The position numbers and the translations under genes were made by a program. DNA of 26,095 nt from a virus: positions 1 to 26,095 of the IMG/VR virus record IMGVR_UViG_3300008266_000607; one strand, written 5' to 3'. The stretch's first letter is position 1. Every line of letters starts with the position of its first letter. The notes under the pieces were generated by a model, which saw nothing but the letters and a program-made list of their open reading frames with translations, made no database searches and had not been told where the DNA came from. Shown here piece by piece: positions 5,314-11,900 of the stretch.

Positions 5314-5327
5314 CCAGATAATATAGA

Positions 5328-5362
5328 AAAACCCCCAGTCTTACGGCACTGGGGGTTTCCTT
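5328..5362. terminator. Bidirectional terminator between converging operons
   Basis: ACCCCCAGT (5331-5339) pairs with ACTGGGGGT (5348-5356) around an 8-base loop; A residues precede it and T residues follow. It lies 14 bases after the primase stop and 16 bases before the last minus-strand gene's stop, so it can end both transcripts. Its stem closely resembles the terminator at 639-673. Confidence 0.88.
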
Positions 5363-5378: not shown

Positions 5379-5525
5379 CTACTCAGGTTTTGGATCTTTC
5401 TTTTCCTCATACTCCTCAACCCTCTTAATTAAGGTATCAACTCGGTCATTCCATAACTGGGAATCCACCGACTGAGGCCATGTAATTAAGTGTTCTCTAA
5501 TCAGTTCTAAGATACTTTTAGTCAT
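5379..5525 (-). CDS. Small protein of unknown function (48 aa), last gene of the minus operon
   Basis: A 48-codon frame (MTKSILELIREHLITWPQSV...EEKKDPKPE) whose ATG overlaps the preceding gene's stop as ATGACTAA, the 8-base overlap used repeatedly in this operon. The product looks helical with an acidic/basic tail. Function unknown. Confidence 0.65.
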   Translation of the reverse strand: MTKSILELIREHLITWPQSVDSQLWNDRVDTLIKRVEEYEEKKDPKPE

Positions 5526-5691
5526 TCGGATCTACCTCATCTAATCCGTAAACCTCAACGATCTCCCAGTTATCTACATCTTTCGGATTAGCCACATCCA
5601 TCCCATATTCTTCAGGATCTTCACCATTTGGCACATCTACCTCAACATAAGTCGTGCCAATAAATTTGACACTCATTCCATATCTACGCAT
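5518..5691 (-). CDS. Small acidic protein of unknown function (57 aa)
   Basis: The start was taken at 5691 (MRRYGMSVKFIGTTYVEVDVP), where ATG overlaps the upstream stop as ATGCGTAG and GAGGGGG lies before it; ATG at 5676 (MSVKFIG) is the alternative. The product is acidic, with a predicted beta-rich N-terminus, and ends in VYGLDEVDPND. No family recognised. Its end overlaps the next gene by 8 bases. Confidence 0.6.
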   Translation of the reverse strand: MRRYGMSVKFIGTTYVEVDVPNGEDPEEYGMDVANPKDVDNWEIVEVYGLDEVDPND

Positions 5692-5887
5692 CATCATCCC
5701 CCTCATCCCATGATTCTTGTTTGATCCCAACCACGCAAAAGTATGCACCTCTAGCACTGGGATCAATATCAAAGTCTTTGCAGATATCATTCCAATCCCT
5801 TGGCATTACTTCGGGATCAATGTGTATCCATCCACCCTTGGGTAAGACTGTATATCCCGCTTGTTCCACCTCAGTTTTGGTAAGCAT
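5684..5887 (-). CDS. Small acidic protein of unknown function (67 aa)
   Basis: Starts MLTKTEVEQAGYTVLPKGGWIHIDPEVMP, with AAAAGGAG at good spacing. A longer in-frame extension exists but would overlap two upstream genes. It contains a WIHIDPEVMPRDWNDICKDFDIDPSA stretch and an acidic DEGDDDA tail. It overlaps the upstream gene by 17 bases. Function unknown. Confidence 0.65.
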   Translation of the reverse strand: MLTKTEVEQAGYTVLPKGGWIHIDPEVMPRDWNDICKDFDIDPSARGAYFCVVGIKQESWDEGDDDA

Positions 5888-6041
5888 TTGCTCTCTCCTT
5901 TTCAGTTTGATACCACTCAACATGGATTGGGAAGTCATCAGGATCGTCATAGTAGTAAATGCCATGAACATATCCTTGATTGTCATGCCCGTAAAACTCT
6001 TGTAGGCTTTCTTCAAACCAGTTTACAAATCGTTTAAGCAT
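5871..6041 (-). CDS. Small aromatic-rich protein (56 aa)
   Basis: Starts MLKRFVNWFEESLQEFYGHDNQ at an ATGCTTAA overlap with the upstream stop, with GAGGAG encoded in the upstream gene's last codons. It contains a GIYYYDDPDD segment like the YYY tracts of neighbours. The first 15 bases of its coding region are identical to those of the gene ending at 6834, which points to duplicated junctions. Function unknown. Confidence 0.65.
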   Translation of the reverse strand: MLKRFVNWFEESLQEFYGHDNQGYVHGIYYYDDPDDFPIHVEWYQTEKERANAYQN

Positions 6042-6204
6042 CTTGCATCTCCTCAATATCTACCACCTCTGAGTCGGTGTATTCAGGCTTTGCCCAGTGA
6101 ATGTTGGTTTCCCACATTTTGTCTTTAGCAGTCCCCCAACAATCGGCTTCTACTTCAACCTTGTAGTAGTAAATATGCTTTACATACCCCGTGAATTTAG
6201 GCAT
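6034..6204 (-). CDS. Small protein with YYYKVEVEA motif (56 aa)
   Basis: Starts MPKFTGYVKHIYYYKVEVEADCWGTAKDKMWETNIHW at an ATGCCTAA overlap with the Api92-like gene. The pattern of a tyrosine-rich strand, VEVEA, then a helix is common in small phage proteins with a beta-alpha fold. It ends EEMQDA, a tail that doubles as the Shine-Dalgarno and start region of the next gene. Role unknown. Confidence 0.65.
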   Translation of the reverse strand: MPKFTGYVKHIYYYKVEVEADCWGTAKDKMWETNIHWAKPEYTDSEVVDIEEMQDA

Positions 6205-6841
6205 CTTCCATCTCCTCAAGTTCTTTCTTCTTGGCGATCAACTGGGCAATCGTTTCGTGATTGTCTTTATCATCAGACAAAGACTGTTCCAGTTCCTCAA
6301 TTTCATCAGCCAGTTCTTGCATAGCCCATTCTTTCATGTTCTCGGTAATGCAAAACTCAAGATCAATGTTCTCAGGGATATTGTTTTTGACATCTAACCA
6401 TTTACCGCTAATGTCATAGGTCTCATCTGAACCATCCACATACTCACCGCAAAAGCAACAACCACCCTCGTAGTAAAGGGCATTGACCCCATACCCATCC
6501 TCTACCAGTTTGTCAAAGATACCAGTGGGGGGAGACCACGCAGTGGCAAATGATGCTTTGATCTGATTCTCTTGAATATCAATGTAGGCTTCATCCGTTG
6601 TGATCTCCCACTTTGTTCCCCAGTTCTGAACCCGCCAGTCCCACCATGCAGATTCAACGCTAACTGGATTGTCATTCCCAGTGATTTGCGGGAATGTTGG
6701 TTTGACCTTGACCTTGTTGTAATCAGGCTCAGGATGAATCGTTCCAAAAAATTTGTTTTCTTTCCACGCATCCACAAGAACCTGAATCTTCTTGGGATCA
6801 TCATGGGTTATATACACAGTGTTATCGCACCAGTTAGGCAT
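6197..6841 (-). CDS. Api92-like protein with ferredoxin-like fold (DUF1281 family)
   Basis: 214 aa from the ATG in the ATGCCTAA overlap at 6834-6841. The opening MPNWCDNTVYI and the internal WSPPTGIFDKL motif are hallmarks of the Api92/YubB (DUF1281) family found in phages and plasmids, whose N-terminal domain has a ferredoxin-like fold. A WWDWRVQNWGTKW segment (about 69-81) and a GCCFCGEYVDG Cys cluster follow, as in family members. The C-terminal 50 residues form a charged coiled coil (LADEIEELEQSLSDDK...KKKELEEMEDA). The biochemical role of the family is unknown; members often sit in accessory regions next to anti-restriction or transfer genes. Confidence 0.75.
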   Translation of the reverse strand: MPNWCDNTVYITHDDPKKIQVLVDAWKENKFFGTIHPEPDYNKVKVKPTFPQITGNDNPVSVESAWWDWRVQNWGTKWEITTDEAYIDIQENQIKASFATAWSPPTGIFDKLVEDGYGVNALYYEGGCCFCGEYVDGSDETYDISGKWLDVKNNIPENIDLEFCITENMKEWAMQELADEIEELEQSLSDDKDNHETIAQLIAKKKELEEMEDA

Positions 6842-7001
6842 TTTCAATCTCCTTTACATTTCCAATATATTCATAGTTAAAAAGTGATACATCTCCGTAG
6901 TTGACACAATCCCTCAAATACTCAAGAGTTTTGTCATACGCACCTTCTTCGGTTTCTGCTTCAACTTCATCAATGTAATAAACCCTAAATCGTTTAAGCA
7001 T
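6834..7001 (-). CDS. Small acidic protein of unknown function (55 aa)
   Basis: Starts MLKRFRVYYIDEVEAETEEGAYDKTLEYLRD, with a strong GAGGAGA before it and an ATGCTTAA overlap at 6994-7001. The beta (RVYYIDEVEAET) then helix pattern resembles the 56-aa protein ending at 6034 and may be a distant paralogue. Ends EIENA, overlapping the next start. Function unknown. Confidence 0.7.
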   Translation of the reverse strand: MLKRFRVYYIDEVEAETEEGAYDKTLEYLRDCVNYGDVSLFNYEYIGNVKEIENA

Positions 7002-7173
7002 TTGCTTTCTCCTCTTCAGAAATTACAAAGTAATAGGTGCTATAACATTTAGGGCAAACTACCTCTGCTTCCTCTTGCCCTTCGATTTCATGCTCGGCAT
7101 GGGTAAATCCAATATGATGGCAGTCCAAACAAATGTTCTGCACATCATCTTCAACCTCAAAATATTTAGGCAT
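6994..7173 (-). CDS. Small zinc-ribbon protein (59 aa)
   Basis: Starts MPKYFEVEDDVQNICLDCHHIGFTHAEHE. CLDCH near residue 15 and CPKC near residue 41 form a four-cysteine zinc ribbon. Its ATG lies in the ATGCCTAA overlap at 7166-7173. Zinc ribbons of this size in phage early operons often bind nucleic acid or host proteins; no specific function can be given. Confidence 0.7.
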   Translation of the reverse strand: MPKYFEVEDDVQNICLDCHHIGFTHAEHEIEGQEEAEVVCPKCYSTYYFVISEEEKANA

Positions 7174-7303
7174 TCTCTTTCTCCCAAATAATGTTTTCAA
7201 TTTGTCGGATATATGGCATATCTTTCATGCCAACCCCGCCAGTTTTAATTTCGACCAGAAGATTGCGTAATCTACGCACACTCCACCGATAGTAATTAGG
7301 CAT
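7166..7303 (-). CDS. Small basic protein of unknown function (45 aa)
   Basis: A 45-codon frame (MPNYYRWSVRRLRNLLVEIKTGG...) between two ATGCCTAA overlaps, with GAGGAGTGTG before its start. It has an Arg-rich N-terminal helix, unlike its acidic neighbours. The perfect fit between flanking genes supports its being real. Function unknown. Confidence 0.65.
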   Translation of the reverse strand: MPNYYRWSVRRLRNLLVEIKTGGVGMKDMPYIRQIENIIWEKENA

Positions 7304-7586
7304 CTTCACACTCCTCATCACTGCTTACGCAGACCTCTAACCCATCACCCTCGTATGGCACTTCGGTAATGTAGTAGTAGATACGATTGACCAAGTGATA
7401 ACCATCCACCACATAAGTCCCGCCATCCCCATCCACATAAGTCCACACCCTTTTAGGCTGAGTATCTGCGATACCTAATACATAACCCAGTTCAAGGTCA
7501 TAGGTCTCAAAGTAATCCCGATTCTCACCCCTTGCAAGGTGATTTTTAATCGGCTTGTATTTGTCATACCATTCATCAAAGTCCAT
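7296..7586 (-). CDS. Acidic protein of unknown function (96 aa)
   Basis: Start at ATG 7586 (MDFDEWYDKYKPIKNHLARGEN), 8 bases after AGGAG; an upstream GTG at 7595 would sit directly on the Shine-Dalgarno and is rejected. Contains VWTYVDGDGGTYVVDGYHLVNRIYYYITE, a beta-rich stretch with another YYY tract. The tail SSDEECEDA encodes the next gene's ribosome binding site. Function unknown. Confidence 0.7.
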   Translation of the reverse strand: MDFDEWYDKYKPIKNHLARGENRDYFETYDLELGYVLGIADTQPKRVWTYVDGDGGTYVVDGYHLVNRIYYYITEVPYEGDGLEVCVSSDEECEDA

Positions 7587-8343: not shown

Positions 8344-8349
8344 AACATT

Positions 8350-8422
8350 CTCCTAGCAGTTAAAGTTATGATTGCCGAATGACAATCCCTATGCCCTCAC
8401 ACAAAGGCATAGAAGTATCACT
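8350..8422 (-). ncRNA. Intergenic two-hairpin RNA element, copy B
   Basis: Read on the minus strand: CTATGCC pairs with GGCATAG (8406-8412 with 8389-8395), then GATTGTC pairs with GGCAATC around loop ATTC (8370-8387), then AACTGCTAGGAGA supplies the ribosome binding site of the next gene. Same order and spacing as the copies at 10944 and 11557, but with different stem sequences. Confidence 0.6.
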
Positions 8423-8688
8423 CAGGGCATTACTGGCAGACAACTCTCCTTGTTATCACTGGTAAACAATGCACCACCCCCATTACCCTCATCATCACGA
8501 CTAGGGAAGAACCACAATCCATCTTGGGTTTGGAATGCCACACTCCGTTCATACCAACCCATATCTGCCGATTCTTCCTTGGTCAGATAACGCACATTAA
8601 CAATCCGTTTATGCAACAACAGTTTTTTGGCAACATCTTCCCAGTAGTTATCCAACTCCTTGTTGTTCATTTGATCCAGTTTTTTCAT
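8422..8688 (-). CDS. Phage/plasmid accessory protein (88 aa), GWYxRxVxF...DDEGNxGGALF type
   Basis: Start at ATG 8688 (MKKLDQMNNKELDNYWEDV), with AAGGAGAG before it. Contains VRYLTKEESADMGWYERSVAFQTQDGLWFFPSRDDEGNGGGALFT, a pattern I associate with small uncharacterised proteins in phage and plasmid accessory regions. The longer frame to 8733 covers the 25-aa peptide gene and is not used. Function unknown. Confidence 0.7.
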   Translation of the reverse strand: MKKLDQMNNKELDNYWEDVAKKLLLHKRIVNVRYLTKEESADMGWYERSVAFQTQDGLWFFPSRDDEGNGGGALFTSDNKESCLPVMP

Positions 8689-8698
8689 CACACTCTCC

Positions 8699-8776
8699 TT
8701 AGTTAAATACAACGATTGCACTCCACACCACATAGGCAGTGTAGGCTATTGCTATTGGCACGATCCAGTCCCACAT
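8699..8776 (-). CDS. 25-aa single-pass membrane peptide
   Basis: ATG at 8776 overlaps the upstream stop as TGATG and opens a 25-codon frame, MWDWIVPIAIAYTAYVVWSAIVVFN, ending at TAA inside the Shine-Dalgarno of the next gene. Almost every residue after position 4 is hydrophobic, so it should span the inner membrane once. The tight coupling on both sides argues for real translation. Possible roles include a superinfection or lysis-timing peptide, but nothing shows which. Confidence 0.5.
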   Translation of the reverse strand: MWDWIVPIAIAYTAYVVWSAIVVFN

Positions 8777-9354
8777 CACTGCACCCCCAATACCCGATAC
8801 TCCAACTTCTTCCAGTTTGGGATTCTGCACAACTGCCCAGTTTGAGTCCTGAATGCTTTCTTCCCATTCCAGTCCGTAGCGATTGTGAAAGTTTTTTCCT
8901 CAAATGATCCACCAGTGCGACTGGTGAACTTAAAGGTTTTCATAAACTGGATGATTGTCCCCAACTCCACCTTGATCTTGGCTCGTTGAGCATTCTCCAA
9001 ACAACGATCCCGCCATTGACGAGCATTGTCATTGAATGGCTCGCCTAACTCGTTTAACTTCTTAATCAGGCTTACAGGTGCGTCAAAGTAATAGGGCAAA
9101 CAACTTTCCCCTACTTCTTTGTGATAAATCCAATGCGGATCATCCTTACGCTTTTCAGTCAGAATAACCATTCCCTCATGGGTTTCTATCCCAGTGGTTT
9201 CATCCTTTTGCCAATGGATACAGTAAGCCACTGCACCACGCATGGAGACATCCGATATCCACCAAGTATGCGTCTCACTCTTTTGTAAAAAAGTATGTTT
9301 CAAGAAGTCCTTACGGCTTCCAGACCCAAACCATTGTGTCCCAGTCCATCCCAT
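8776..9354 (-). CDS. MGWTG-type phage protein (192 aa), possibly DUF6927-like
   Basis: Start at ATG 9354 (MGWTGTQWFGSGSRKDFLKHTF), 8 bases after GAGGAG. Residues 1-100 contain the features of the MGWTG family: SRKDFLKHTF, AVAYCIHWQKDETTGIE, WIYHKEVGESCLPYYFDAP. The C-terminal part (GTIIQFMKTFKFTSRTGGSFEEKTFTIATDWNGKKAFRTQTGQLCRIPNWKKLEYRV) is a beta-rich domain. Proteins of this kind are found in phages and mobile elements without a known function. The family call is from memory of sequence pattern and needs a profile search. Confidence 0.65.
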   Translation of the reverse strand: MGWTGTQWFGSGSRKDFLKHTFLQKSETHTWWISDVSMRGAVAYCIHWQKDETTGIETHEGMVILTEKRKDDPHWIYHKEVGESCLPYYFDAPVSLIKKLNELGEPFNDNARQWRDRCLENAQRAKIKVELGTIIQFMKTFKFTSRTGGSFEEKTFTIATDWNGKKAFRTQTGQLCRIPNWKKLEYRVLGVQ

Positions 9355-9356
9355 GA

Positions 9357-9545
9357 TTAGCACTCCTCATCTGTTAATGAATAAAACTTACCAACCTTGT
9401 TGCCATTGGTATCCTTAATAATCCCATCCAACTCCGAGCAATCTACCTTACCAATCACGCTTTTTAAGTTTGCTATTACCTCTCCGTAATAGTCATCCTC
9501 ATAAGCAGAATTGTCGGTTTTAATCTCGACCATAAACTTGCTCAC
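9357..9545 (-). CDS. Small protein of unknown function (62 aa), GTG start
   Basis: Start taken at GTG 9545 (MSKFMVEIKTDNSAYEDDYYGEVIANLK), 8 bases after GAGGAG, the same spacing as the sister junctions at 7586 and 9354; ATG at 9533 is the alternative. Pattern: beta strand, helix, then GNKVGKFYSLTDEEC. No family recognised. Confidence 0.6.
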   Translation of the reverse strand: MSKFMVEIKTDNSAYEDDYYGEVIANLKSVIGKVDCSELDGIIKDTNGNKVGKFYSLTDEEC

Positions 9546-9829
9546 GATAAGCACTCCTCAAGTATGTATTCAACTTCAAAAATAGTGGGATCAACCTTAT
9601 CAATCTCAACAATGGTGAAGTCCTCACCATCATTAAGAACATCACCCACTTTCAGCGATTGCATTTCTTGCTCAGTCAGGAAGAAGTAAATCTTTTCATC
9701 TGCCCAACTATCAAAATGAGCATCTTCAGGATGCCCTTCCTCTGCAACTCCGAGTAAAACACTTGCACCATTACCTAACCAGTCGCAATTTATGACTGCA
9801 TCATAGGCTTTGATTTTGATTGTCGGCAT
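9542..9829 (-). CDS. Acidic protein of unknown function (95 aa)
   Basis: Start at ATG 9829 (MPTIKIKAYDAVINCDWLGNG), 8 bases after CTAGGAG; an ATG six bases upstream is too close to the Shine-Dalgarno. The C-terminal half (YFFLTEQEMQSLKVGDVLNDGEDFTIVEIDKV) reads like a small beta-barrel with a helix. The operonic RNA element copy D lies directly upstream. Function unknown. Confidence 0.65.
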   Translation of the reverse strand: MPTIKIKAYDAVINCDWLGNGASVLLGVAEEGHPEDAHFDSWADEKIYFFLTEQEMQSLKVGDVLNDGEDFTIVEIDKVDPTIFEVEYILEECLS

Positions 9830-9835
9830 ATCCAT

Positions 9836-9889
9836 ATCTCCTAGCAGTTTGACAAAGACCAAACCCCTTACTGGCGGTTTGGTTTCGAC
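9836..9889 (-). ncRNA. Intergenic RNA element, copy D (reduced)
   Basis: On the minus strand ACCAAACC (9876-9883) pairs perfectly with GGTTTGGT (9858-9865), followed by AAACTGCTAGGAGA. The second hairpin found in copies A-C is absent or degenerate here. Confidence 0.45.
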
Positions 9890-10089
9890 TATTCAAGTCT
9901 CATCAGTTTGTCTTGATTATTTTTAATGCTATTTTCAATAAACTCAGCCCATGATCTAGCGACTATCTCATCAAAGACCCATATCTGATCTAACTTCATA
10001 TTACTGGCAGTATTCTCGGCACTTTCCCAGTCTCCATGATCTCCCAAGTCATACAGAAGTCCATCAGTGTTCAAAGCAAAATAGATCAT
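9889..10089 (-). CDS. Small protein of unknown function (66 aa)
   Basis: Starts MIYFALNTDGLLYDLGDHGDWESAENTASNM directly after the upstream TAA, with GAGG as Shine-Dalgarno. A strand-loop-helix pattern (ALNTDG...DWESAENTA...WVFDEIVARSWAEFIENSI) common to small phage proteins. No function known. Confidence 0.65.
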   Translation of the reverse strand: MIYFALNTDGLLYDLGDHGDWESAENTASNMKLDQIWVFDEIVARSWAEFIENSIKNNQDKLMRLE

Positions 10090-10275
10090 TTAATAATCCT
10101 CGTTTTCTTCCCACAGGCAAGGATCAACCAATCTTTGCCCAAAGGCATTGAACAACTGCCCACAATCACAAGCAACATCCTCGCCTGAACCATCCGAGCA
10201 GACCTTTCTATTGCACTGGCACTTCCATTCCCGCCACAGAATCCGACCAGTATCTTGGCATTCAACGATTCTCAT
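10090..10275 (-). CDS. Small cysteine-rich, probably zinc-binding protein (61 aa)
   Basis: Contains five Cys in WKCQCNRKVCSDGSGEDVACDCGQLFNAFGQRLVDP, a C-x-C...C-x-C zinc-finger-like layout ending in FNAFGQRL. Small phage proteins with a CxC...CxCG-x-YN-x-x-GQ pattern are frequent and uncharacterised. Start ATG overlaps the upstream stop (TAATG), with AAGGAG at 8 bases. Confidence 0.7.
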   Translation of the reverse strand: MRIVECQDTGRILWREWKCQCNRKVCSDGSGEDVACDCGQLFNAFGQRLVDPCLWEENEDY

Positions 10276-10577
10276 TATTCAAACTCCTTTGGCACAATGA
10301 CATCAAACTTACGCAACAGGGCTATTGCCTTGTCAGACAGGCACATCACTCCATCATATTCATCCAAGGTGCGGATGCCGAACTGGTCAATGGTGAACCA
10401 CAGACCAATGTATTCAAAACCCACATCCTCGATATCCCACTCAATGAACCCAGTAGCATCATCTCTGAAATACAACTCCATGGTGGATTCGTGAGTCCCG
10501 ATATCCTTCTCGCCCCAACTGCCTTCCATGATTAGGGGGGCAGTAAAGGTTTCTTTGCCGATAAAGTAGTGAGTCAT
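10275..10577 (-). CDS. Protein of unknown function (100 aa)
   Basis: Starts MTHYFIGKETFTAPLIMEGSWGEKDIGTHEST, with CGGAG at 9 bases. Middle part (MELYFRDDATGFIEWDIEDVGFEYIGLWFTI) is rich in aromatic and acidic residues and likely beta-strand. C-terminus has SDKAIALLRKFDVIVPKEFE. No family recognised. Confidence 0.65.
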   Translation of the reverse strand: MTHYFIGKETFTAPLIMEGSWGEKDIGTHESTMELYFRDDATGFIEWDIEDVGFEYIGLWFTIDQFGIRTLDEYDGVMCLSDKAIALLRKFDVIVPKEFE

Positions 10578-10579
10578 GG

Positions 10580-10939
10580 TTAATACTCCGAAGTAAGCAT
10601 GAGAACATTGTCAGTCAGGAAGAACTCATAGAGTCCACTAGGGCAATCAGTGTGAGCAATATGCTTAGAGAAAAGCAGTTTAAGATCGCCATCCTCAACT
10701 GAGATTGTGGCTTCACCATCTTCTGCTTTCAGGTTGATCGCCAAGAATGGGTCTTTCTTGGTCAAGGGATAAATCTCGGTAGCAACAATATCCAAGAACC
10801 AGTAAGCACCATTACCTGCATTGTCGGCAAAGTATTGAACCCCATCAGTGTGAACCAATTTAGGTGCAAACATGAATGTTGAATAGTAATTCTCAGTCCC
10901 GTAAAACTGGGATAAATCTAATTTGGTAGTCGATTCCAT
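10580..10939 (-). CDS. DUF6876-like protein (119 aa)
   Basis: The blocks FYGTENYYSTFMFAPKLVHTDGVQYFADNAGNGAYWFLDIVATEI (about 12-56) and the end FFLTDNVLMLTSEY match the pattern of the DUF6876 family, whose members share a FxGTExYY, YTDGVxYLAE..GAYWLxDxI core and an LPSEY-like end. The family is found in plasmids, phages and integrative elements; its function is not established. The ribosome binding site is the CTAGGAGA of RNA element copy C. Family call by memory of pattern. Confidence 0.7.
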   Translation of the reverse strand: MESTTKLDLSQFYGTENYYSTFMFAPKLVHTDGVQYFADNAGNGAYWFLDIVATEIYPLTKKDPFLAINLKAEDGEATISVEDGDLKLLFSKHIAHTDCPSGLYEFFLTDNVLMLTSEY

Positions 10940-10943
10940 TTAA

Positions 10944-11015
10944 TTCTCCTAGCAGTTATGACTATCAGGATTGATAATCCACAAACCCACGCAGTGCATG
11001 GGCTTGTAGGTATCA
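10944..11015 (-). ncRNA. Intergenic two-hairpin RNA element, copy C
   Basis: On the minus strand ACAAGCCCAT (10998-11007) pairs with GTGGGTTTGT (10981-10990) with G-U wobbles, then GATTATCA pairs with TGATAGTC (10960-10979) with one wobble around loop ATCC, then AACTGCTAGGAGA. The pairs that are mismatched on the plus strand are wobbles on the minus strand, so the functional RNA is the minus one. Confidence 0.65.
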
Positions 11016-11261
11016 ATGCTTAGTGAATCTTGGGGTAAAGTTATCTTCAGTAATGATGCCAACAATGTCATGCACGAAGTCATATCTCTCGCCAGTCAGC
11101 ATAGAATCTAAATCCAAATTGCCATGCTTGGCTTGATACTCTCCCAGTTTGATAGCGATCTCGATAGAAAGCAGACCAAGCGTATCAGGTTGAACTTTTG
11201 AGAATGCATCCAAAGCAGTAAAGCGATCTACAACTTGGGTAATCTTTTCTAAGTCTTTCAA
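11013..11261 (-). CDS. Small helical protein of unknown function (82 aa), TTG start
   Basis: TTG at 11261 (MKDLEKITQVVDRFTALDAFSKVQPD) lies five to six bases after AGGAGA. Helical throughout (DTLGLLSIEIAIKLGEYQAKHGNLDLDSMLTGERYDFVHDIVGIIT). No recognised domain. Confidence 0.65.
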   Translation of the reverse strand: MKDLEKITQVVDRFTALDAFSKVQPDTLGLLSIEIAIKLGEYQAKHGNLDLDSMLTGERYDFVHDIVGIITEDNFTPRFTKH

Positions 11262-11275
11262 TTTAATCTCCTAAG

Positions 11276-11551
11276 TTAAAAGGTTTTTACCCAAATACGG
11301 GCATTGTCGGCAAGGTCATACAGGTCAGCCAGTAGGTAATCCACTTCGGCAGTATCGTCAGCGTATGACAGACCCTCAGCGATTTCTTCTAGATCGTCAG
11401 TGATATCGTTGCGATCAGTCCAAGACTGGTGAGTCTCAATGAACTTGGTGATACGGGCAGACGCTTTCTTGGCAAAATCCTGAGCACTTTCGGATTGCTC
11501 AAAATCTTCCATCAAGTCGGTAAGGTCAATTTCTTGTTTCCAGTTAGCCAT
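11276..11551 (-). CDS. Acidic helical protein of unknown function (91 aa)
   Basis: Starts MANWKQEIDLTDLMEDFEQSESAQDFAKKAS after CTAGGAGATTCAA. A strongly acidic all-helical composition (DITDDLEEIAEGLSYADDTAEVDYLLADLYDLADNARIW). Acidic small proteins are common among phage inhibitors that mimic DNA, but no specific evidence is present here. It follows RNA element copy A. Confidence 0.65.
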   Translation of the reverse strand: MANWKQEIDLTDLMEDFEQSESAQDFAKKASARITKFIETHQSWTDRNDITDDLEEIAEGLSYADDTAEVDYLLADLYDLADNARIWVKTF

Positions 11552-11556
11552 TTGAA

Positions 11557-11632
11557 TCTCCTAGCAGTTAGTCGAATGATTGTTGAATAACAATCCCTAA
11601 ACCCACTGGGCAGTGGGCTTAGAGGTATTACT
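11557..11632 (-). ncRNA. Intergenic two-hairpin RNA element, copy A
   Basis: On the minus strand CTAAGCCCACT pairs with AGTGGGTTTAG (one G-U) around loop GCCC, then GATTGTT pairs with AACAATC (11578-11595) around loop ATTC, then AACTGCTAGGAGA (11557-11569). The first stem starts right after the upstream gene's TGA. Confidence 0.65.
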
Positions 11633-11856
11633 CAATAACTGGATCTCGCTTCTGCTTGATGCTCTGCCATAAGATCGCTACGCAATGAGACCATGGCTTG
11701 CAGTGATTTGATAGTCTTTACCAAATCCATACCATTCTCAGACAATTCTTCCAGTAGATCGCCATCATCATAGGCTTCTACTACGACATCCCAACCCTTA
11801 TCGTATAAGGCTTCAGCGTGTTTGCGTATTGCTTGAATCTTTTCTTGATCAGTCAT
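11632..11856 (-). CDS. Small helical protein, first gene of the minus operon (74 aa)
   Basis: Starts MTDQEKIQAIRKHAEALYDKGWDVVVEAYDDGDLLEELSEN, with TAGGAGA at good spacing. Helical, acidic in the middle and ending in MAEHQAEARSSY. As the promoter-proximal gene it should be among the earliest and most strongly made products of this operon. No family recognised. Confidence 0.7.
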   Translation of the reverse strand: MTDQEKIQAIRKHAEALYDKGWDVVVEAYDDGDLLEELSENGMDLVKTIKSLQAMVSLRSDLMAEHQAEARSSY

Positions 11857-11861
11857 ACTTT

Positions 11862-11900
11862 TCTCCTATTAGTCGAATCGGTGTTTAATCACCTACCGAC
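11862..11900 (-). promoter_or_regulatory. Leader hairpin of the minus operon
   Basis: GGTG (11880-11883) pairs with CACC (11890-11893) with flanking CGG/CCG, followed on the minus strand by ATTCGACTAATAGGAGA, a close match to ATTCGACTAACTGCTAGGAGA in RNA element copy A. It looks like a shortened fifth copy of the element. Confidence 0.4.

Follow-up and report, generated by a model that had tools for sequence, protein, structure and literature searches.

Hammerhead ribozymes and a predicted three-strand RNA element exchange at gene-block boundaries of phage operons

The virus record IMGVR_UViG_3300008266_000607 (26,095 bases, from a freshwater phage, all of it analyzed here and called the window) carries on its minus strand one early operon, running from about 11,900 to 5,330, with structured RNAs at four gene junctions, A, B, C and D. 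We find that D is, judged by its sequence, a type I hammerhead ribozyme, and that A, B and C belong to a family of RNAs in which a central strand is predicted to pair with either of two partners. Hammerheads and RNase III sites were already known in phage operons; what appears to be new is a bistable family of three-strand RNAs that take the place of hammerheads at orthologous junctions. We found no description of it in the literature, in a search of an incomplete library, and it has no Rfam entry. By analogy with known systems, we put at about even the chances that A to D are intercistronic sites of messenger RNA (mRNA) processing, where RNase III of the host cuts A to C, after which strand 2 refolds with strand 3 into a 5' hairpin.

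Results

Copy D reads as a hammerhead ribozyme

A preliminary description of this operon had taken D for a truncated copy of the element at A, B and C, consisting of the first of its two hairpins and a ribosome-binding box. D reads instead as a type I hammerhead with a complete core, stems I to III and a GUC cut site 22 nucleotides (nt) before the start codon, and close relatives have a hammerhead in the same position; the supposed hairpin I is stem III (Table 1). It lies between a stop codon and a ribosome binding site, the CUGANGA and GAA segments, the A15.1-U16.1 pair (A9883-U9858) and H17 (C9857) are all present, and the three helices meet at the core with no adjoining mispair. The nearest Rfam model, RAGATH-1-hammerhead (RF03152), matches at 27.6 bits, short of its gathering score of 56.3, and we class D as a hammerhead but not as a member of RF03152. 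When the operon was compared with isolated phages by blastn, the one match fell on D (68 bases, 85% identity) and came from nine records of Flavobacterium elemo phages; the matching sequence in these cultured phages also reads as a hammerhead. The core CUGANGA ... GAAA is absent from A, B and C; these partner elements of D are not hammerheads.

In close relatives the hammerhead at D's place has very different stem III sequences. Among 48 distinct hammerheads from the collected loci (numbered with an L below), none departs from A-U at the first stem III pair, beside the cut, whereas at most stem positions more than one kind of pair occurs; the search that gathered these sequences required the stems, so the variety of pairs is informative and the rate of pairing is not.

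Some hammerheads carry long stem III inserts with a repeated GAGNCCGCAAA (L064 6298, L063 3500 and, on the minus strand, L019 9256, L029 11273 and L023 2653), which are perhaps a tertiary-contact or protein-binding module. Further hammerhead-like motifs, CTGATGAG...CGAAAC after a short hairpin with no obvious stem III or cut site, lie at gene junctions in L036 (680, 981, 2511) and L037 (5330). The gene annotated for the hypothetical protein QLF85237.1 runs antisense across the hammerhead of the elemo phage (L005 3967-4074; MT497017.1 17275-17382) and is probably spurious.

Table 1. Positions in the window of the RNA elements and other features of the minus-strand operon
Feature	Position	Strand	Detail or basis
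Two-hairpin element A	11575..11637	minus	strand 1 11633-11626; hairpin I (P2) 11624-11595; strand 2 11595-11585; hairpin II (P3) 11595-11578
Two-hairpin element B	8367..8427	minus	strand 1 8423-8416; hairpin I 8414-8387; hairpin II 8387-8370
Two-hairpin element C (GGATTATCA type)	10957..11022	minus	strand 1 11018-11011; hairpin I 11009-10979; hairpin II 10979-10960
Hammerhead ribozyme by sequence (copy D)	9851..9912	minus	sequence, Rfam match, elemo phage match, stem covariation
D stem I	GACAAA 9912-9907 / UUUGUC 9856-9851	minus	6 base pairs (bp)
D core CUGAUGA	9906-9900	minus	sequence
D stem II	9899-9896 / 9890-9887	minus	4 bp
D GAAA	9886-9883	minus	sequence
D stem III	9883-9876 / 9865-9858	minus	8 bp
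D predicted cut	between 9857 and 9856	minus	between GUC and UUUGUC
AACTGCTAGGAGA ribosome-binding box after A	11557..11569	minus	sequence search
AACTGCTAGGAGA box after B	8349..8361	minus	sequence search
AACTGCTAGGAGA box after C	10945..10957	minus	sequence search
AACTGCTAGGAGA box after D	9837..9849	minus	sequence search
TTGACA before the operon start	11929-11924	minus	sequence
Conserved operon leader hairpin GTCGGTAGGTGATTAAACACCGATTCGAC	11872..11900	minus	near-invariant in four relatives; not a copy of the element
Terminator-like hairpin, probable operon end	5327..5360	minus	terminator scan

A, B and C belong to a family in many uncultivated phages

The preliminary description placed A, B and C on the minus strand, each as hairpin I, hairpin II with a 4-base loop and then the box AACTGCTAGGAGA before the next gene, and this arrangement held up. 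R2, a covariance model built only from phages outside the window's lineage, picked exactly these three from the window in a search with filters off, at 56.1 bits for A (E-value 1.8e-10), 55.0 for B (3.2e-10) and 54.8 for C (3.5e-10), the next match being at 11.8 bits. A second model, R1, scored them at 75.7, 74.1 and 56.9 bits. The box occurs exactly four times in the window, each time on the minus strand. Hairpin II of C has an 8-bp stem, and the minus-strand folding energies of A, B and C are far below those of shuffled sequences (z of -3.7, -2.6 and -5.1).

A pattern search for hairpin II matched 28 virus contigs, about 20 of which have the element, and further models and patterns brought the collection to 94 distinct two-hairpin copies, which fall by sequence into three types, a canonical one (GGATTGTCATTC), the C-type (GGATTATCA) and the V-type (GTAATCC ... 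GGGATTGCCATT). Several lineages of unrelated gene content carry two copies per operon. We conclude that the two-hairpin elements are a family present in many uncultivated phages.

Outside these phages, R2 found nothing above 19.9 bits on about 395 kilobases of bacterial contigs. Scanning some 85,000 bacterial and archaeal species genomes with the core pattern, a scan that divergent prophage copies would escape, gave chance-like matches only, and the family therefore appears to be phage-borne. Among isolated phages, blastn with the elements returned chance matches only, the gene behind B has no relative, and nine isolate or named records searched over their whole length contain no two-hairpin element. 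Rfam holds no family for A to C, and no Rfam ribozyme matched these three up to an E-value of 5 or the elements of 12 other loci up to 0.5. In several other lineages (L012 2869-3558, L026 8529-9167, L150) the gene that follows a two-hairpin element encodes a small protein related to the beta sliding clamp of DNA polymerase III.

The element and the hammerhead exchange at orthologous junctions

Clustering the genes downstream of either RNA gave 48 families, of which 29 follow only the two-hairpin element, 11 only the hammerhead, and 8 either one. This is the stricter count; a looser classifier of upstream regions gave a few hammerhead false positives (window C_up, L120, and B_up of L063 and L105). 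The eight exchangeable families include the genes behind all four sites in the window: a hammerhead stands before the gene behind A (L014, L033), the gene behind B (L060, L062) and the gene behind C (L062, L064), while a homologue of the gene behind D follows a two-hairpin element in L021 and L095. Genes inside the blocks have neither RNA in 38 and 18 distinct upstream regions, and where gene order is rearranged (the D gene and its neighbor) the hammerhead remains at the start of the block. Given exchange at orthologous junctions and none inside the blocks, the simplest reading, which we consider well supported, is that the hammerhead and the two-hairpin element do the same job at block boundaries.

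Three strands, two competing folds

The preliminary description drew hairpins I and II simply side by side. This did not stand, since the segment GGATT(G/A)T(C/T)A has a second pairing partner, the 5' flank GAGTGATACC, which makes the two hairpins parts of alternative folds. At minimum energy A, B and C each fold into one long hairpin rather than two adjacent ones, the sequences on either side of hairpin I being paired with each other. In the structure that we model, strand 2 has two possible partners: with strand 1 it makes a long hairpin interrupted by a small internal loop, and with strand 3 it makes hairpin II.

We measured covariation on 65 distinct aligned copies, with the alignment fitted to P1 (strand 1 with strand 2) and to the helix of hairpin I but not to hairpin II. 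Changes on both sides of a pair occur at 7 of 8 pairs in P1, 11 of 13 in hairpin I and 3 of 7 in hairpin II (strand 2 with strand 3), and hairpin II cells are paired in 98% of cases. The rows of the alignment are interrelated, so these counts overstate independent events; controls slid out of register fall far below the true register. Strand 2 is shared between the helices: column 52 pairs with 11 or 68 and column 54 with 9 or 66, and both sets change together. Pair 11-51 has no mismatch in the alignment of other lineages (U-A in 23 copies, C-G in 8, A-U in 1), and its partner column also varies with strand 3. The divergent second copies in L140 and L205 have an entirely different strand 2 and keep both pairings. 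P1 and P2 flank a 1 x 2 internal loop, also with covariation, replaced by a 2-nt bulge in V-type copies. The predicted energies of the two folds are equal (mean difference -0.1 kcal/mol, standard deviation 2.15), with 56 of the 65 copies within 3 kcal/mol.

The stems had been noted to differ in sequence while staying paired, and the compensatory changes bear this out. A functional minus-strand RNA under selection is likewise supported by the covariation, by the strand-specific model matches and by the placement relative to stop codon and ribosome binding site. That proposal had been staked on matches beyond the window's copies and on covariation, and both were found.

These patterns also bear on what kind of RNA the element is. 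Pistol, hatchet and twister-sister ribozymes were found through their association with hammerhead and twister genes, and the same guilt by association could mark the two-hairpin element, which sits at hammerhead positions and whose close types have the residues ACCU and GGAUU in common, as a self-cleaving ribozyme of a new class, interchangeable for phages with the hammerhead. Such a ribozyme might, for example, use a pseudoknot between AGUG of strand 1 and CAUU in the hairpin II loop region. Pairs 7-10 are compatible with such a pseudoknot between strand 1 and the loop of hairpin II, but 11-51 and 12-50, which either covary or remain paired, cannot form together with hairpin II; the strand 1:strand 2 pairing extends past the compatible part, making the folds mutually exclusive, and alternative folds fit the modeled pairs better. 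Beyond gene positions shared with hammerheads, nothing in sequence or structure matches pistol, hatchet or twister-sister, and the family has almost no invariant residues: sequence turns over nearly completely with pairing alone kept, as in the second copies of L140 and L205, no core is conserved across types, and the V-type junction differs. Together with the lack of Rfam ribozyme matches up to the E-values searched, this makes self-cleavage by A to C distinctly improbable.

The preliminary description had also suggested a phage RNA-binding protein. Several copies per operon and a partly conserved strand 2 would suit a recognition site for a phage or host protein, but the types have no single-stranded motif in common, we found no candidate protein, and strands can be replaced wholesale provided that pairing is kept. 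The exchange with hammerheads would also go unexplained, and we regard such a site as very unlikely. An intrinsic terminator or attenuator is more unlikely still, to the point of being barely credible. A simple scan does flag hairpin I of A and of B, followed by ATTGTTATTC and ATTGTCATTC, as terminator-like; however, it does not flag C or D, the candidate tract is itself a conserved pairing strand, with few T in C-type and V-type copies, and hairpin II is followed by AT and AACTGC rather than by a U tract.

Placement between stop codon and start codon

The stop codon of the upstream gene lies at the 5' edge of the element in 90 of the 94 distinct copies, and, where a start was found, 17-29 nt (median 22) separate the end of hairpin II from the next start codon. 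Hammerheads likewise overlap the upstream stop codon, and from their predicted cut to the next start codon the median distance is 25 nt. Neither fold of the element includes the ribosome binding site; sequestering of that site was considered as a mechanism and rejected on this ground. RNA from hairpin II onward is predicted to have a paired 5' end in 54 of 54 distinct copies, with a mean of -7.5 kcal/mol vs -1.4 for shuffled sequences; the RNA downstream of a hammerhead cut is predicted to be unstructured.

A stop codon on strand 1, together with mutually exclusive, covarying folds of equal energy, invites a reading in which nothing is cut. A ribosome terminating at that codon would block the first fold and let hairpin II form, so that translation of one block would govern how strongly the following block is expressed or how stable its message is. 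Here the element resembles the three-strand attenuators of the trp type, in which strand 2 also pairs with strand 1 or strand 3 and strand 1 holds a stop codon, but it has no U tract and no leader-peptide codons, and its ribosome binding site is exposed. Because hammerheads overlap the stop codon too, compact packing is enough to explain the placement; a ribosome binding site that is free in both folds leaves the switch with no apparent output, and exchange with a self-cutting ribozyme is left unexplained. On balance we think a switch of this kind unlikely.

The phage, its operon and neighboring features

The large terminase of the window is similar to that of Pelagibacter phage HTVC027P and to those of phage 023Pt_psg01 and further podovirus-like phages. 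The operon leader, previously read as a shortened copy of the element, turned out to be a separate conserved hairpin at the operon's 5' end: it is nearly constant in four relatives, in which the promoter region upstream is variable. Two similar strong hairpins, AAAAACCCCCAG...CTGGGGGTTT, at 639-670 and 5327-5358, are probably transcription terminators at operon ends. On the minus strand, a repeat at gene junctions, TGAGGAGATGGAAGATGCCTAA, occurs seven times within 5388-7317 and makes stop codon, ribosome binding site and start codon overlap; on the plus strand it is repeat family D1. A plus-strand match to the Rfam Betaproteobacteria-1 small RNA (RF02932; 798-914, 98 bits) lies within this phage contig and suggests a betaproteobacterial host.

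Discussion

Because the hammerhead cuts RNA, the job that both elements do is probably the cutting of the polycistronic message. Arrays of hammerheads flank gene blocks in prophages, where transcript processing has been proposed and some have been shown to cleave (Perreault et al. 2011, PMC3088659). In bacteriophage T7, R1.1 is a 60-nt hairpin between phage genes with an asymmetric internal loop that RNase III cuts (PMC6121014). Like R1.1, A to C lie between cistrons, are of similar size, form a long hairpin in which a lower and an upper stem enclose a small asymmetric loop, and are repeated along a phage operon. They differ from it in having a third strand, which can take over the 3' side of the lower stem and, once the predicted cut is made, would pair into a 5'-terminal hairpin; in their smaller loop; in their exchange with ribozymes; and in that their processing is a prediction.

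We propose the following sequence of events. D would cut itself between GUC and UUUGUC and leave a short leader with a 5'-hydroxyl (5'-OH) ahead of the next ribosome binding site. In the first fold of A to C, the strand 1:strand 2 helix would complete a 20-bp hairpin with a small internal loop, resembling a T7 RNase III site, and a double-strand-specific nuclease of the host, most likely RNase III, would cut at or near that loop. Strand 2, now at the new 5' end and able to pair only with strand 3, would form a terminal hairpin of 7-8 bp, which may drive release of the product and shield its 5'-phosphate end from decay, and hairpin I would remain as the 3'-end hairpin of the upstream message. 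RNase III leaves a 5'-phosphate, which exposes the RNA to RNase E-dependent decay unless a 5' hairpin blocks it; hammerhead cleavage leaves a 5'-OH. The difference in ends would account both for the presence of hairpin II in the two-hairpin element alone and for the balance between that element's two folds.

From these likenesses we infer the cutting itself, its position, the enzyme and the protective role, and several observations weigh on the other side. The 1 x 2 internal loop is smaller than the 4 x 5 loop of R1.1, and V-type copies have only a 2-nt bulge. Within close types strand 2 is conserved beyond what RNase III would need, a conservation that the first search pattern partly forced. 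Exchange implies a common function and not a common chemistry, and the part of RNase III is proposed by analogy. The earlier suggestion that the element controls translation or processing of the downstream blocks in parallel thus survives in its second half: exchange with hammerheads supports processing, and translational control through a hidden ribosome binding site is unlikely.

Hammerheads have been known in phage operons since 2011, and their function there is unsettled. An unrelated bistable RNA at the same junctions provides an internal comparison, in which whatever both RNAs do is the function of the site, and the comparison points to parallel cutting of long phage messages. Read as cutting sites, the elements show why a solution that leaves a 5'-phosphate would need a 5' hairpin and one that leaves a 5'-OH would not. 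The family, with several copies per genome, is open to simple in vitro assays, and if its members were to prove self-cleaving they would constitute a new ribozyme class.

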